Origin: Aliarcobacter skirrowii CCUG 10374
GTDB taxonomy: Bacteria > Campylobacterota > Campylobacteria > Campylobacterales > Arcobacteraceae
NCBI RefSeq assembly: GCF_003544835.1
Contig: NZ_CP032099.1
Span: forward strand, 1,736,001-1,800,000
Direction of reading: 5' to 3'
DNA: 64,000 nt
The notes beneath the pieces are model-generated. The model searched no databases. It was given only the letters and a program-made list of their open reading frames with translations, and had not been told where the DNA came from. Shown here one piece after another: positions 46,662 to 52,787 of this stretch (its first letter is position 1; every line of letters begins with the position of its first letter). Both the position numbers and the translations under genes were made by a program.

Positions 46662-47312
46662 TTAGTAAACTTTTAAAGTTTTCTCTTCTAATATATAAAT
46701 CTTTTCAACTAAGCTATCTATAAAGGTTTTTTGATGAGATACAATTATCATTGATTTTTCTATACTTTTTAAAATATCAATAAGCTTTTTTTCACCATCA
46801 TCATCTAAGTTATTTGTTGGCTCATCAAGAAGTAATATTTTTGGCTCTTTTATTAAAATAGCTGCTAAAGCTACGAGTTTTTTCTCTCCACCACTTAAAT
46901 CATAAATTACTCTATTTTCTAAATGCAAAATATCTAAGCTTTTTAAGATATCTAAGCTTTTTTTATATGCTTCAGCTTTTTTTACTCCCAAAGCCAATAA
47001 AGAGAACATAACATCTTCAATTACAGTAATAGACAAAAAAAAGTTATCTATATCTTGAGGTAAATATGCTATTTCATCTCTATATTTTTCATAATCCTCT
47101 TTTTTGTTGATTTTATTATGAAAAATATCTATTGTTCCACTGTTTTGATTTTTTAAACCAGCTATTATTTTAAGAAGTGTTGATTTTCCAACTCCATTTT
47201 TACCAATAATAGCAATTTTCTCTTTGTGTCCTAAATCAAAACTTACATTTTCAAATAAAATCTTCTCATCTTTTTTATATGAAATATCTTTTAAATTTAT
47301 TGAACAACTCAT
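46662..47312 (-). CDS. cbiO: ECF-type nickel/cobalt transporter ATPase (CbiO/NikO-like)
   Basis: A 216-residue ABC ATPase: Walker A GKNGVGKSTLL, Q-loop LPQDIDNFFL, signature DLSGGEKKLVALA, Walker B ILLLDEPTNNLDDDG and His switch VSHQKTF. It lies at the end of a five-gene transport operon and overlaps the membrane-coupling gene by four bases. Together with the CbiQ-like protein it would drive the NikM-type substrate channel. The nickel preference is inferred from the adjacent hydrogenase genes. Confidence 0.9.
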   Translation of the reverse strand: MSCSINLKDISYKKDEKILFENVSFDLGHKEKIAIIGKNGVGKSTLLKIIAGLKNQNSGTIDIFHNKINKKEDYEKYRDEIAYLPQDIDNFFLSITVIEDVMFSLLALGVKKAEAYKKSLDILKSLDILHLENRVIYDLSGGEKKLVALAAILIKEPKILLLDEPTNNLDDDGEKKLIDILKSIEKSMIIVSHQKTFIDSLVEKIYILEEKTLKVY

Positions 47313-47953
47313 AAAACTACCTTTAAAAAAATTATAATTGATATTAAAAATATCAAAATAGAATCAACTAAACTAAAACTATTTTCATAATTTATAAAAA
47401 TTTCACCTTTAAAACCTCTTGCTTTAAAACTATCTTTTAGTTTTTCACTATTTTTAATAGTTTTTAAAAATAGTATTCCAAAAATATTTCCGTAGGTTTT
47501 ATATGTAAAAATATCTGTTTTTGCTTTAAAGTTTCTGGCCTTTAAAGACTCTTTTATATTTTTAAACTCCATATTTAAATCAAAAATAGATTTAACAGTA
47601 AAATATAAAGTAGAATTAAACTTTTTAGGAAATTTTAAAATCATAAAAGCTTTTACAATATCAAAACCATTTGAAGAGTAAAATAGTAAAAGATTAAATA
47701 AAAGTATGAAATTTACTTTTAAAAAGAGATTTAAAGCTTCATTTATATTAGTTTCAAAATATAAAAAAAGAGTTAATACAAGCACAAAAAAGTTTAAAAA
47801 TAGTAGTTTTCTTAAAATATTTAAAATATTTTTATAGTTTAAATATATAAGAAAAATCAGAGGAAGTATAAAAAATAGTTCAAATTTTGAGAAACTCAAA
47901 ATCAAACTAAATCCAACTGCACTCAACAAAGAGATAGCTGGATTTAAACTCAA
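47309..47953 (-). CDS. cbiQ: ECF-type transporter T-component (CbiQ/NikQ-like)
   Basis: A 214-residue membrane protein with about five helices. It carries the two Ala-Arg-Gly-type coupling motifs of T-components in its cytoplasmic loops: ESLKARNFKAK (about 134-144) and DSFKARGFKGE (about 171-181). These touch the ATPase. It overlaps both neighbours by four bases, indicating tight stoichiometric translation of the complex. Confidence 0.85.
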   Translation of the reverse strand: MSLNPAISLLSAVGFSLILSFSKFELFFILPLIFLIYLNYKNILNILRKLLFLNFFVLVLTLFLYFETNINEALNLFLKVNFILLFNLLLFYSSNGFDIVKAFMILKFPKKFNSTLYFTVKSIFDLNMEFKNIKESLKARNFKAKTDIFTYKTYGNIFGILFLKTIKNSEKLKDSFKARGFKGEIFINYENSFSLVDSILIFLISIIIFLKVVL

Positions 47954-48429
47954 CTTTTAACTCTTTTTATTATTAAAAATATAAAAGCTATCAAAATCAA
48001 TCCAAAAGCTATTTTAAATATCTCAAAATAGTTTAGTTGTGTTTCTAAAACCTCTATTCTGTTTTTTAAAAAAGTATTCTCTTCTAATAACTCTTTAATT
48101 TTTTTATCTTCTTCTATTTTTTCTTTATTTTCAACTTCAGCAATCTTTTTTAAAACTTTTATATCTTTGCTAACAAAGTGCGAACTTCCTGCATCAACTG
48201 TAACCTTGAAAAAATCATTTGAGCTTTTATAGTTATACTCACCATTTTCATCTAATCTACTTTCAAAAACTAAACCATCTGATTCAATTTTAAATTTACA
48301 ACTCTTGCATGGCTTAGCATTTGCAAAATATGAGTTGATATAAAGATTATCATCTTTTAAGTCTAAAAATAGATTCACCTTGTGAGCGAATAGAAATATT
48401 GGTAAAAATAAAATCAAAAAAAATCTCAT
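47950..48429 (-). CDS. NikL-like accessory component of the nickel transporter
   Basis: A 159-residue protein with a signal peptide (1-15, ending LFA), then a mature N-terminus beginning HKVNLFLD. A beta-rich periplasmic domain with a CKSC pair (about 41-44), a coiled-coil stretch (about 105-130) and one C-terminal transmembrane helix follow. Size, topology and position between CbiM- and CbiQ-like genes match NikL/CbiN-type additional components. Sequence identity to known NikL could not be tested. Confidence 0.7.
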   Translation of the reverse strand: MRFFLILFLPIFLFAHKVNLFLDLKDDNLYINSYFANAKPCKSCKFKIESDGLVFESRLDENGEYNYKSSNDFFKVTVDAGSSHFVSKDIKVLKKIAEVENKEKIEEDKKIKELLEENTFLKNRIEVLETQLNYFEIFKIAFGLILIAFIFLIIKRVKS

Positions 48430-49028
48430 ATATTTAATCCTTTAAATAAATTTGGCATTGTTTTTTTTATATATAAAAACAAAAAAAGTGTAATTAACCC
48501 TTCTAAAATCATTGTTGGAATATTTACAAGAACTATTGAATATGCTGCATTTTTATACTCTTGTTTTGAAAAAACCAAAAGAATAAACATCATAATAGCT
48601 GATAAAAAAACTCCACTAAATCCAATTATAAAAAACTTTATTTTTTCATTTAACTTTTTTAAAATATTAATTTTAAATAATAAAAATACAAAATATGCGG
48701 GAATTGCTATTATTAAAACATTTGCTCCTAAAGAGCTAACTCCTCCGTACCCCAAAAGCAAAGCTTGTAAAATAAGTGCCAAAGATATAGAAAATATTGC
48801 AACACTTCCCAAAAAAATTCCAATAAAACCTAAAAGCATTAGATGAATTTGAGTAAATCCAAAGGGTATATGAATAAATGAAGCTACAAAAAAAAGAGCA
48901 CTAAAAGCAGACGCTAGTGCTATTTTATCATTTGATAAATTTTTAAAAGAGTATATTAAAAATAAAGTAGCAACAGTAGTCGAAACTACTGTAACTTCAA
49001 GAGTTAAAATACCATCACTAATATGCAT
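48426..49028 (-). CDS. cbiM: ECF-type nickel transporter substrate channel (CbiM/NikM-like)
   Basis: A 200-residue membrane protein with about six helices and the family N-terminus MHISDGIL. Here His2 together with the N-terminal amine is known to form the metal site in NikM/CbiM. A further His-rich stretch FIHIPFGFTQIHLMLLGFIG (about 52-71) contributes to the site. It starts one base after the NikK-like gene stop and overlaps the next gene by four bases. Confidence 0.9.
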   Translation of the reverse strand: MHISDGILTLEVTVVSTTVATLFLIYSFKNLSNDKIALASAFSALFFVASFIHIPFGFTQIHLMLLGFIGIFLGSVAIFSISLALILQALLLGYGGVSSLGANVLIIAIPAYFVFLLFKINILKKLNEKIKFFIIGFSGVFLSAIMMFILLVFSKQEYKNAAYSIVLVNIPTMILEGLITLFLFLYIKKTMPNLFKGLNI

Positions 49029-49029
49029 T

Positions 49030-49755
49030 TTAGTAAGCTTTTAACCAAAGTAATGCACCATTTTCAATAGGGTATTTTTTACCATTTAGCTCTTTTTCTC
49101 CCTCTTCAATAAGTGCTGCAAATCCCCACCAACCTTTATGATTCATCACAAAAGAGAAAACTCCATTTTTATCTGTTTTAATACTTTGAGTAATATGTGA
49201 AGATGTTGGAGCTTTTAAATCAAACTCATTATAAAGTTCAACTTCTACCTCAACATTTGCTTGTGGTTTTCCATCTTTTAAAACTATACCTTGAAAAATA
49301 TTTCCAGCATAAAGAGCAAAAGGTTTTGTAAGTGGAACTATCTCATATTTTAAACCAATTGGCTCATCCCATCCATCTTCAACACCAAAAGCACTAACTA
49401 TCACTTTTGGAACATGGCTTATAAATAAACCTTCTGACTCTTCAAAATAAGGCTCAGGTTGTACAAAAAACTTATAAACTGCTGGTTTATCTATTGAATA
49501 TGAAGTTTCCCAAGCTTTGTGTTCAAACTTTTTTCTCTCTTTTAAAGGTAGAGAGTTTTTACTGTTATTTACAAAAATACCTTTTGGTTTCTCCATATTC
49601 ATACCACTTTGTTCAAAAGGGTGAATAAACATAGCCTCTATTTTGATATTTGCATCTTTTTTATCTTCGATATTATCACTAGTTGGAAGAAGAGTTAAAA
49701 AATGTGCATTTGCAAAAAGAGCTGTTAATGCTAAAGCTGAAATTACTTTTTTCAT
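49030..49755 (-). CDS. NikK-like periplasmic DUF4198 protein
   Basis: A 241-residue exported protein. The signal peptide (1-17, ending ANA) is followed by a mature N-terminus HFLTLLPTS, typical of DUF4198 proteins that accompany nickel ECF transporters. Two Ig-like beta domains follow (Met- and His-containing FIHPFEQSGMNMEKPKG in the first). It is thought to collect nickel in the periplasm and pass it to NikM. It is the first gene of the five-gene transporter operon and has an AAGGAT ribosome site. Confidence 0.82.
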   Translation of the reverse strand: MKKVISALALTALFANAHFLTLLPTSDNIEDKKDANIKIEAMFIHPFEQSGMNMEKPKGIFVNNSKNSLPLKERKKFEHKAWETSYSIDKPAVYKFFVQPEPYFEESEGLFISHVPKVIVSAFGVEDGWDEPIGLKYEIVPLTKPFALYAGNIFQGIVLKDGKPQANVEVEVELYNEFDLKAPTSSHITQSIKTDKNGVFSFVMNHKGWWGFAALIEEGEKELNGKKYPIENGALLWLKAY

Positions 49756-50227: not shown

Positions 50228-51226
50228 TTAACAAATCCTTGGAAGCAGTTCACCAGTTGGTGTATCTAAAAATCTTTTTGTTCCCCAAGAACTATTTAAA
50301 ATAACTTTTTGTGGGTATTGAGAAGTTACTTTTCCAATAATAGAAGCGTTTGAAGCTTCAGGAAAAGTATGTAAAACTTCAATAGCTTTTGTAGCATCAT
50401 CTTTTGAAATTGCGAGTAAAAATGTTCCTTCATTTGCTAAATTTGTAGCTTCAAATCCAAGCATTTCACAAATTCCTTTTACCTCATCACTAATAGGAAT
50501 TTGTTCTTCTTCTACTTCTATACAAATATTTGATTGCTTCGCCCATTCGTTTAATACAGCACTCACTCCTCCTCTTGTAGCATCTCTAAGAGCTGTTATT
50601 TTAATGTTAGCATCTATCAAGGCTTTTACTAAAGGATATAAAGAGCTACAGTCACTTTTTAAATTTGAGTTCATATCTATACCTTCACGTGCAGTAAATA
50701 TTGTAGCTCCATGAGCTCCTATGTCACGGCTTACAAGAATTAAGTCATCTTGTGTAATATTGTTTGAGCTAATTCCACTATAAAGAACTTCTCCAATACC
50801 AGTTGTATTTATAAAAATCTTATCAACAGCACCTTTTGGAACTACTTTTGTATCACCACTTACAATTATCGCTTCATTTTTTGCTAACTCTTCTTTCATA
50901 GAGTTTACAATAATTTCAAGCTGTTCTACTTCAAATCCCTCTTCTATGATAACTGAACAAGTAAGATATTTTGGTTTTGCTCCCATCATTGCTAAATCGT
51001 TGCAAGTTCCACAAATGGCAAGTTTTCCTATATTTGCTCCATTAAAAAAAAGAGGAGTAACTGTAAAACTATCTGTACTAAATGCTAATGTTCCATTTTG
51101 AATAACTGCTGCATCTTCACTCTTTTCTAAAATCTCATTTTTAAAAGCTTTATAAAAAACCTCTTTTATTAACTCACTATTTTCAACTCCACCATTTCCG
51201 TGTGCTAATGTTATTGTTTTTGTCAT
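50228..51226 (-). CDS. hypE: Hydrogenase maturation protein HypE
   Basis: A 332-residue PurM-fold enzyme that dehydrates the HypF-made thiocarbamate on its own C-terminal Cys to thiocyanate, the source of the cyanide ligands. It begins TITLAHGNGGVENSELI, has FSTDSFTVTPLFF and LRDATRGGVSAVLNEWA, and ends PRIC with the essential C-terminal Cys. Its ATG directly follows the stop of the 46-codon ORF between it and hypD. Confidence 0.96.
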   Translation of the reverse strand: MTKTITLAHGNGGVENSELIKEVFYKAFKNEILEKSEDAAVIQNGTLAFSTDSFTVTPLFFNGANIGKLAICGTCNDLAMMGAKPKYLTCSVIIEEGFEVEQLEIIVNSMKEELAKNEAIIVSGDTKVVPKGAVDKIFINTTGIGEVLYSGISSNNITQDDLILVSRDIGAHGATIFTAREGIDMNSNLKSDCSSLYPLVKALIDANIKITALRDATRGGVSAVLNEWAKQSNICIEVEEEQIPISDEVKGICEMLGFEATNLANEGTFLLAISKDDATKAIEVLHTFPEASNASIIGKVTSQYPQKVILNSSWGTKRFLDTPTGELLPRIC

Positions 51227-51367
51227 TTATCTGTTTTCCCTACTTTTACTATACTTTTTACTTCCACTTTGAGATGTCTCAATTGGATATTTAGGATTGT
51301 GAAATTCATCCCAATTTCTATCATCACTAAACTTTTGTATTCTTTGTTTTATTTGTTCTATATCCAT
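51227..51367 (-). CDS. 46-residue mini-protein resembling an internally deleted MazG-like pyrophosphohydrolase
   Basis: A short ORF filling the hypD-hypE gap exactly: its ATG is nine bases after the hypD stop with an AAGAGA ribosome site, and its TAA abuts the hypE ATG. The first 26 residues (MDIEQIKQRIQKFSDDRNWD, then EFHNPK) match the N-terminus of MazG-like nucleotide pyrophosphohydrolases. The rest (KYPIETSQSGSKKYSK) resembles the C-terminal end of the same family. The central helices with the metal-binding EExxE and Asp residues are missing, so it cannot be an active pyrophosphatase. It may be a remnant or a small protein kept for coupling translation. Confidence 0.6.
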   Translation of the reverse strand: MDIEQIKQRIQKFSDDRNWDEFHNPKYPIETSQSGSKKYSKSRENR

Positions 51368-51376
51368 GTTATCTCT

Positions 51377-52501
51377 TTATAGTAAATTCCCATATTTATA
51401 ATAAGCACTACAAGCACCCTCTGAGCTCACCATACAAGAACCAATAGGATTTGTTGGAGTACACACAGTTCCAAAGATTTTGCAATCAGTTGGTTTTGCA
51501 ACACCTTTTAAAATCTCAGGACATTTACAAGCTTTATTCTCTTTTACTTCTTGTGTTGGTAATATATCTTTATAAACTATTTTTGCATTATATTTATCAA
51601 ACTCATCTTTTAGTTCATAACCACTATTTTCAACCTCACCTATTCCTCTAAATTTAAAAGGAACTTTTTTAAAGTATCTGTTTATAAGCTCTTGAGCTTT
51701 TAGATTTCCATCATAAGATACAACTCTTTTATACTCGATTTCCAAATTAGCTCTTTTTTCTTTGAACTGTTTTACTATCATTGAGATACTTTGCATAACA
51801 TCAACTGGTTCAAATCCACTTACAACAACTGGTTTATTATAATTTTTTGGGAACTCTTCATATATTTTGCTTCCACTAATAACACTTACATGAGATGGTC
51901 CTAAAAAAGCATCTATTTTGCAGTTTTTATCTTCTACTAAAACTCTCATAACCTCTGGAACTGTTATATGATTTATAGAAAATAGAATATTTTTTATATC
52001 TTGTTTTATCACTTGTTCTAATAAAGCACATGTCATTGGAGTTGTTGTTTCAAAACCTATTGCAAAAAAGACTACTATTTTATCTTTGTTCTCATCTGCT
52101 ATTTTTAAACAATCCATTGGAGAATAAACAAATCTCACATCAGCACCTTGGCTTCTTGCTTTTTGTAAACTCCCTTTACTTCCTGGAACTTTTATCATAT
52201 CTCCAAGTGTTACAAGTATCAGATCTTTTTGTAAACTTAAAATATAAGCACTATCTATTCTATCTTTTGGCATAACACAAACAGGACAACCAGGTCCATG
52301 AATAAAATTTATTTTTTTATTTATTAGTTGTGGTATTCCATACTTCATAATAGTATGAGTATGCCCTCCACAAACTTCCATAATATTTATAGTTTTATCA
52401 TAATCTTTTAAATCTTCATCTATTAATTTTTTATATGCTTTTATAGTTTTAGCATCACGAAAGCCATCATATAAATCTTTTAGTTGTAACTCTTTTTCCA
52501 T
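51377..52501 (-). CDS. hypD: Hydrogenase maturation protein HypD
   Basis: A 374-residue [4Fe-4S] protein that, with HypC, builds the Fe(CN)2CO unit. Visible are the redox Cys motif EVCGGHTHTIMKYG, HGPGCPVCVMP, and C-terminal Fe-S cysteines (CKCPEILKG, CKIFGTVCTP, GSCMVSSEGACSAYYKY). I chose ATG 52501, four bases after the hypC stop. A TTG at 52537 would overlap hypC by 32 bases and add 12 non-family residues. Confidence 0.95.
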   Translation of the reverse strand: MEKELQLKDLYDGFRDAKTIKAYKKLIDEDLKDYDKTINIMEVCGGHTHTIMKYGIPQLINKKINFIHGPGCPVCVMPKDRIDSAYILSLQKDLILVTLGDMIKVPGSKGSLQKARSQGADVRFVYSPMDCLKIADENKDKIVVFFAIGFETTTPMTCALLEQVIKQDIKNILFSINHITVPEVMRVLVEDKNCKIDAFLGPSHVSVISGSKIYEEFPKNYNKPVVVSGFEPVDVMQSISMIVKQFKEKRANLEIEYKRVVSYDGNLKAQELINRYFKKVPFKFRGIGEVENSGYELKDEFDKYNAKIVYKDILPTQEVKENKACKCPEILKGVAKPTDCKIFGTVCTPTNPIGSCMVSSEGACSAYYKYGNLL

Positions 52502-52505
52502 GATA

Positions 52506-52787
52506 CTATCTGTTTTGACAATTTTGAGACTCTTCAATTTCTGCTAACCTATCCTCTTGCTCAATCTCTTCTATTATCTTTTCATAAAGCTTTAGTGATT
52601 CTAGGGCATACTCTTCATCTATTTTATTCATAGCAAAACCAATATGAATTAAAACATAATCTCCTACTTTTACCTCTTCATCTATTAAATCTAAACTAGC
52701 ACTTCTTTCTACTCCCATAGTATCAACTACGCAAGTATTCATCTCAGGGTCTATACTTTTTATTTTTGATGGTATTGATAAACACAT
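52506..52787 (-). CDS. hypC: Hydrogenase maturation chaperone HypC
   Basis: A 93-residue HypC. The invariant N-terminal MCLSIPSKI (Cys2 binds the iron unit) fixes the start at ATG 52787, with AAGGA eight bases upstream. ADYVLIHIGFAMNKI-type motif (GDYVLIHIGFAM) is present. The acidic C-terminal tail (EEIEQEDRLAEIEESQ) is longer than usual. It shuttles Fe(CN)2CO from HypD to the large subunit. Confidence 0.95.
   Translation of the reverse strand: MCLSIPSKIKSIDPEMNTCVVDTMGVERSASLDLIDEEVKVGDYVLIHIGFAMNKIDEEYALESLKLYEKIIEEIEQEDRLAEIEESQNCQNR

Follow-up and report, generated by a model that had tools for sequence, protein, structure and literature searches.

The window, by which we mean the whole 64,000-nucleotide stretch analysed from Aliarcobacter skirrowii CCUG 10374, carries hypD (51377..52501, read from MEKELQ, with a longer TTG start at 52537) and hypE (50228..51226) on its minus strand, and a 46-codon open reading frame (ORF, 51227..51367) runs from ATG to TAA between them. 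Profile searches placed HypD (TIGR00075) and HypE (TIGR02124) far over the curated cut-offs. The hypE gene is intact and its product ends in PRIC, the motif that carries its functional cysteine (PMC12130793). The ORF starts nine bases after the end of hypD, behind a spacer that contains a ribosome site (AGAGATAAC, 51368..51376), and its stop codon lies flush with the hypE ATG at 51226, leaving no gap. The initial annotation had described this placement without a strand; we confirmed the placement at 51227-51367 and found every feature to be on the minus strand. The genes hypF, hypB, hypC and hypA, identified from their sequences, surround hypD and hypE in the window, and inspection of ORF translations by eye showed nickel/cobalt-type uptake genes (CbiM-like, CbiQ-like and an ATP-binding protein) after hypA, at 46662-49755 on the minus strand.

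All 31 Aliarcobacter genomes were searched, with Aliarcobacter vitoriensis and Arcobacter caeni among the named relatives and with the window species sampled by one genome (G000). The hypE gene was present in 26 of the 31. The hypD-hypE region of the relatives, where the initial annotation had proposed to look, held an intact 118-codon MazG/DCTPP1-like pyrophosphohydrolase gene in 22 of these 26 hypE-bearing genomes, in the same slot as the short ORF of the window. This gene was flush with hypE or overlapped it by four bases in 21 of the 22 genomes, which bears out the translationally coupled slot that had been proposed, and in G004 a separate ORF lay between the intact gene and hypE. The five genomes of the genus without hypE also lacked the mazG-like gene, and G023 carried an additional mazG-like copy elsewhere in its genome. 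The mazG-like gene sits away from hyp in two further genera of this family (L026, L027), and residence in the hyp operon therefore seems to be a trait of the Aliarcobacter lineage. We found no report of mazG in hyp operons in the literature, as covered by open-licence papers. An intact relative matched PF12643 (MazG-like) at 48.6 bits against a cut-off of 27, and the best PDB matches of the intact relatives were dCTP pyrophosphatase 1 (DCTPP1, or RS21-C6), with an E-value of 1e-22 over aligned residues 3-112. DCTPP1 prefers dCTP and 5-modified dCTP, binds Mg2+ via an ExxD motif and belongs to a family whose four-helix core assembles into a dimer of dimers (PMC4491611).

The junction between hypD and mazG was variable. 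Different cargo lay between the two genes in 17 Aliarcobacter genomes (L165-L184), while mazG and hypE stayed joined. The cargo comprised McrC and McrB-like pairs in 8 genomes and a 3-hydroxyisobutyrate-dehydrogenase-like gene in 10, as well as a YhcG/DUF1016 nuclease, a PemK toxin with a RelB-like antitoxin, a Bro-N protein and a KAP ATPase (PADLOC PDC-S49), and the hyp operon thus seems to have an insertion hot spot at this junction. There was no cargo at the hypD-ORF junction of the window species, whose spacer is identical to that of cargo-free relatives with an intact gene (G018, G017 and G011), as are the start and the ribosome site of the ORF. A second McrC-McrB-mazG module was located elsewhere in the genome of G023 (L172:3520-6550, numbered on the reverse-complemented locus), as though mazG had travelled together with McrBC. 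McrBC acts on modified-cytosine DNA and DCTPP1 on 5-modified dCTP, and a functional link between them is therefore conceivable. We considered whether the loss of MazG is tied to the absence of McrBC and rejected this, because McrC is absent from G000 but also from G024, G018, G011, G019, G001, G002 and G007, all of which carry an intact mazG-like gene.

Comparison with the 118-aa protein of G024 showed that the two ends of the gene are fused in the window. Codons 1-26 of the relative matched the ORF at 96% (25 of 26 residues identical, E 7.7e-11; 51290..51367), and codons 98-118 matched at 95% (E 2e-5). The ORF consists of ancestral codons 1-26 joined to codons 99-118 and the stop (51227..51289), the latter part carrying the bases immediately before the start of hypE (AGTAGGGAA...), and exactly 72 codons (216 bp, codons 27-98) are missing. 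Homology to the MazG-like/DCTPP1-like family was thus detectable at both ends of the stub against intact members, and these matches together with the synteny exclude chance similarity. Both the MazG-like ancestry and the in-frame loss of the catalytic core, as put forward in the initial annotation, are upheld by this comparison. In the aligned relative, the acidic motifs are GEVGELNE and KEEIADI, and both fall within the deleted codons and are absent from the stub. In the MazG/DCTPP1-like family, the first acidic helix also belongs to the Mg2+-binding motifs.

When the same cut was made in the G024 gene, an identical 5-bp CTAAA was found at both breakpoints (CCTAAA and GCTAAA), in agreement with the earlier idea that a pair of PK-like sites (CCT AAA and GCT AAA) bounds the break. 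CTAAA forms the deletion junction in the window (51290..51294), and in G024, G019, G002 and G010 it occurs at each of the two breakpoints, which are separated by 216 bp. Such a direct repeat is expected if slippage between short repeats was the cause, and the breakpoint fits that process. The G024 gene has 82 pairs of five-base repeats with a spacing of 60 bp or more, and 28 of them would delete in frame, so an in-frame outcome had a chance of about one third and is by itself no sign of selection. The stub alone gave no match to a Pfam or NCBIfam profile. It had also been suggested that the stub be aligned to a full-length MazG-like protein of the same genome; using the G024 118-aa protein as the query, we detected no second mazG-like copy there. 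The only MazG-superfamily match over the Pfam cut-off in G000 was HisIE by its sequence and was set aside, and a second MazG-family match, weak and sub-threshold, lay inside a 412-aa frame.

Relative to DCTPP1/RS21-C6, an all-alpha NTP-PPase of the MazG superfamily, the stub retains a start of the form F..DR.W..FH.PK and a YP...KKYSK tail, but the acidic motifs for metal binding and the greater part of the helical core are gone. In a model built from the single sequence, only helices 3-16 and 19-23 and a low-confidence tail were formed (mean pLDDT 66, pTM 0.28), and the four-helix core of the DCTPP1 family was absent from the 46-mer. Given the missing acidic motifs and the two short helices, the stub is predicted to be inactive and, by the chemistry of the family, could not be an active pyrophosphohydrolase. 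Compared with the intact hyp-operon gene, it has the same slot, ends and hypE junction, with the hypD spacing of the cargo-free relatives, but 46 codons instead of 118. It likewise resembles in-frame deletion pseudogenes that arise between short direct repeats, being bounded by a 5-bp repeat with its frame open, and differs from them notably just in its operon position and in the decay intermediates of its relatives.

Those intermediates were found in G008 and G030, where the hypD-hypE gap of 57-69 bases holds an eroded mazG remnant (L187:2020-2092 and L188:4083-4143, respectively). A scrap of the N-terminus (AGAATACAA, encoding RIQ) is kept together with the 11 terminal codons (SKKYSKSRENK), which overlap the hypE start or lie flush with it, while the mazG start codon is lost; a protein search of these two genomes gave no match to the mazG-like gene. 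The KKYS codons of the G008 remnant stand in a tandem repeat. The mazG-like gene is intact in G015, a close relative of both. The G008 and G030 remnants would represent a later stage of decay than the stub of the window. In G012, the hypD-hypE gap is 17 bases and contains no mazG remnant, and a HypE protein tree placed G012 apart from the G008/G030 pair, leaving the sister of G000 within its own cluster ambiguous. In G036, which belongs to another genus, a 78-aa ORF (L189:3960-4196) begins like an antitoxin gene and continues into the MazG tail TKNEAKYPVETSKDGSKKYSKYRKN just before the next gene, and we read it as an independent truncation that kept the same tail. The 3′ tail of mazG is present in the remnants of G000, G008/G030 and G036. 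We take the mazG-like enzyme to be dispensable in Aliarcobacter, with recurrent loss.

We consider it very likely that the ORF is a decaying remnant of the hyp-operon MazG/DCTPP1-like nucleotide pyrophosphohydrolase gene, gutted by a deletion between CTAAA repeats. The in-frame deletion is evident from the comparison with relatives, and it is most likely an ordinary gene loss, one of several in the group. The MazG/DCTPP1-like gene would be an ancestral part of the hyp operon in the genus, and slippage between the repeats 216 bp apart would have excised codons 27-98 and, with them, the catalytic helices. The resulting stub is expected to have no enzymatic activity and is probably still translated, since it has an undamaged ribosome site, start codon and stop codon. 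Its 3′ tail, with stop and start flush, may still supply the hypE initiation region, and the tail probably survives in remnants because it holds the translation start of the next gene. However, the last six mazG codons showed no unusual synonymous conservation (pS 0.51 against a median of 0.50 for all six-codon windows), and the idea that synonymous constraint holds them found no support; pS was 0.35 for codons 99-118 versus 0.50 for the core. As no clear excess of synonymous conservation was seen in the tail, we only infer a role in hypE initiation, and retention for that purpose is plausible but unproven.

It is unlikely that selection has maintained the gutted ORF as an enzyme remnant reused in a maturation operon, whether as a coupling leader that is translated or as a microprotein with HypD/HypE as its targets. 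The stub differs from the G024 gene by 3 nonsynonymous and 4 synonymous changes over 46 codons (pN 0.026 and pS 0.19, from few changes). This low divergence fits a recent deletion and would fit constraint too, since so few differences do not discriminate between recent decay and constraint, and the intact start, ribosome site, stop and open frame count against the reading as a decaying remnant. In the coupling-leader reading, ribosomes completing the stub would start again at hypE, which would favour a short in-frame ORF even with a useless peptide. The flush stop and start, the surviving 3′ tail in G000, G008/G030 and G036, and a start and ribosome site unchanged from intact relatives would agree with such a leader, but G008 and G030 retain the tail although no stub ORF with an ATG start is left in them, and in G012 hypD and hypE nearly touch with no leader, showing that a leader ORF is not required. 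The lack of excess synonymous constraint in the final codons and the one-in-three chance of an in-frame product (28/82 repeat pairs) also speak against it, and we give this reading a slim chance. Selection on the peptide finds no support in a form seen in one species and in frame with that same chance. The suggestion in the initial annotation of a new role in hydrogenase maturation fares no better: a functional microprotein would suit the position between hypD and hypE and the few amino-acid changes from G024, but is highly improbable, with a stub form limited to one species, a predicted fold of two short helices and nothing more, and G008, G030 (shorter, start-less remnants) and G012 (no remnant, hypD and hypE adjacent) lacking the stub though their hypD and hypE are intact. 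With one genome sampled for the species, the deletion might be particular to this strain. The least credible reading is that 216 bp of an intact gene were lost through a mistake in sequencing or assembly, for although the species has one genome and the gap is flanked by short repeats, the assembly is a single complete contig with 100% completeness and a loss of this size between 5-bp repeats is rare as an error.

With the ORF read as a decaying remnant, an intact gene, an in-frame gutted gene, a start-less scrap and a clean loss all occur at one site in one genus, giving a snapshot of operon decay. The stub should not be annotated as a pyrophosphohydrolase. The site also serves as a small natural experiment on whether a dying upstream gene has its 3′ end protected by the initiation region of the gene downstream.
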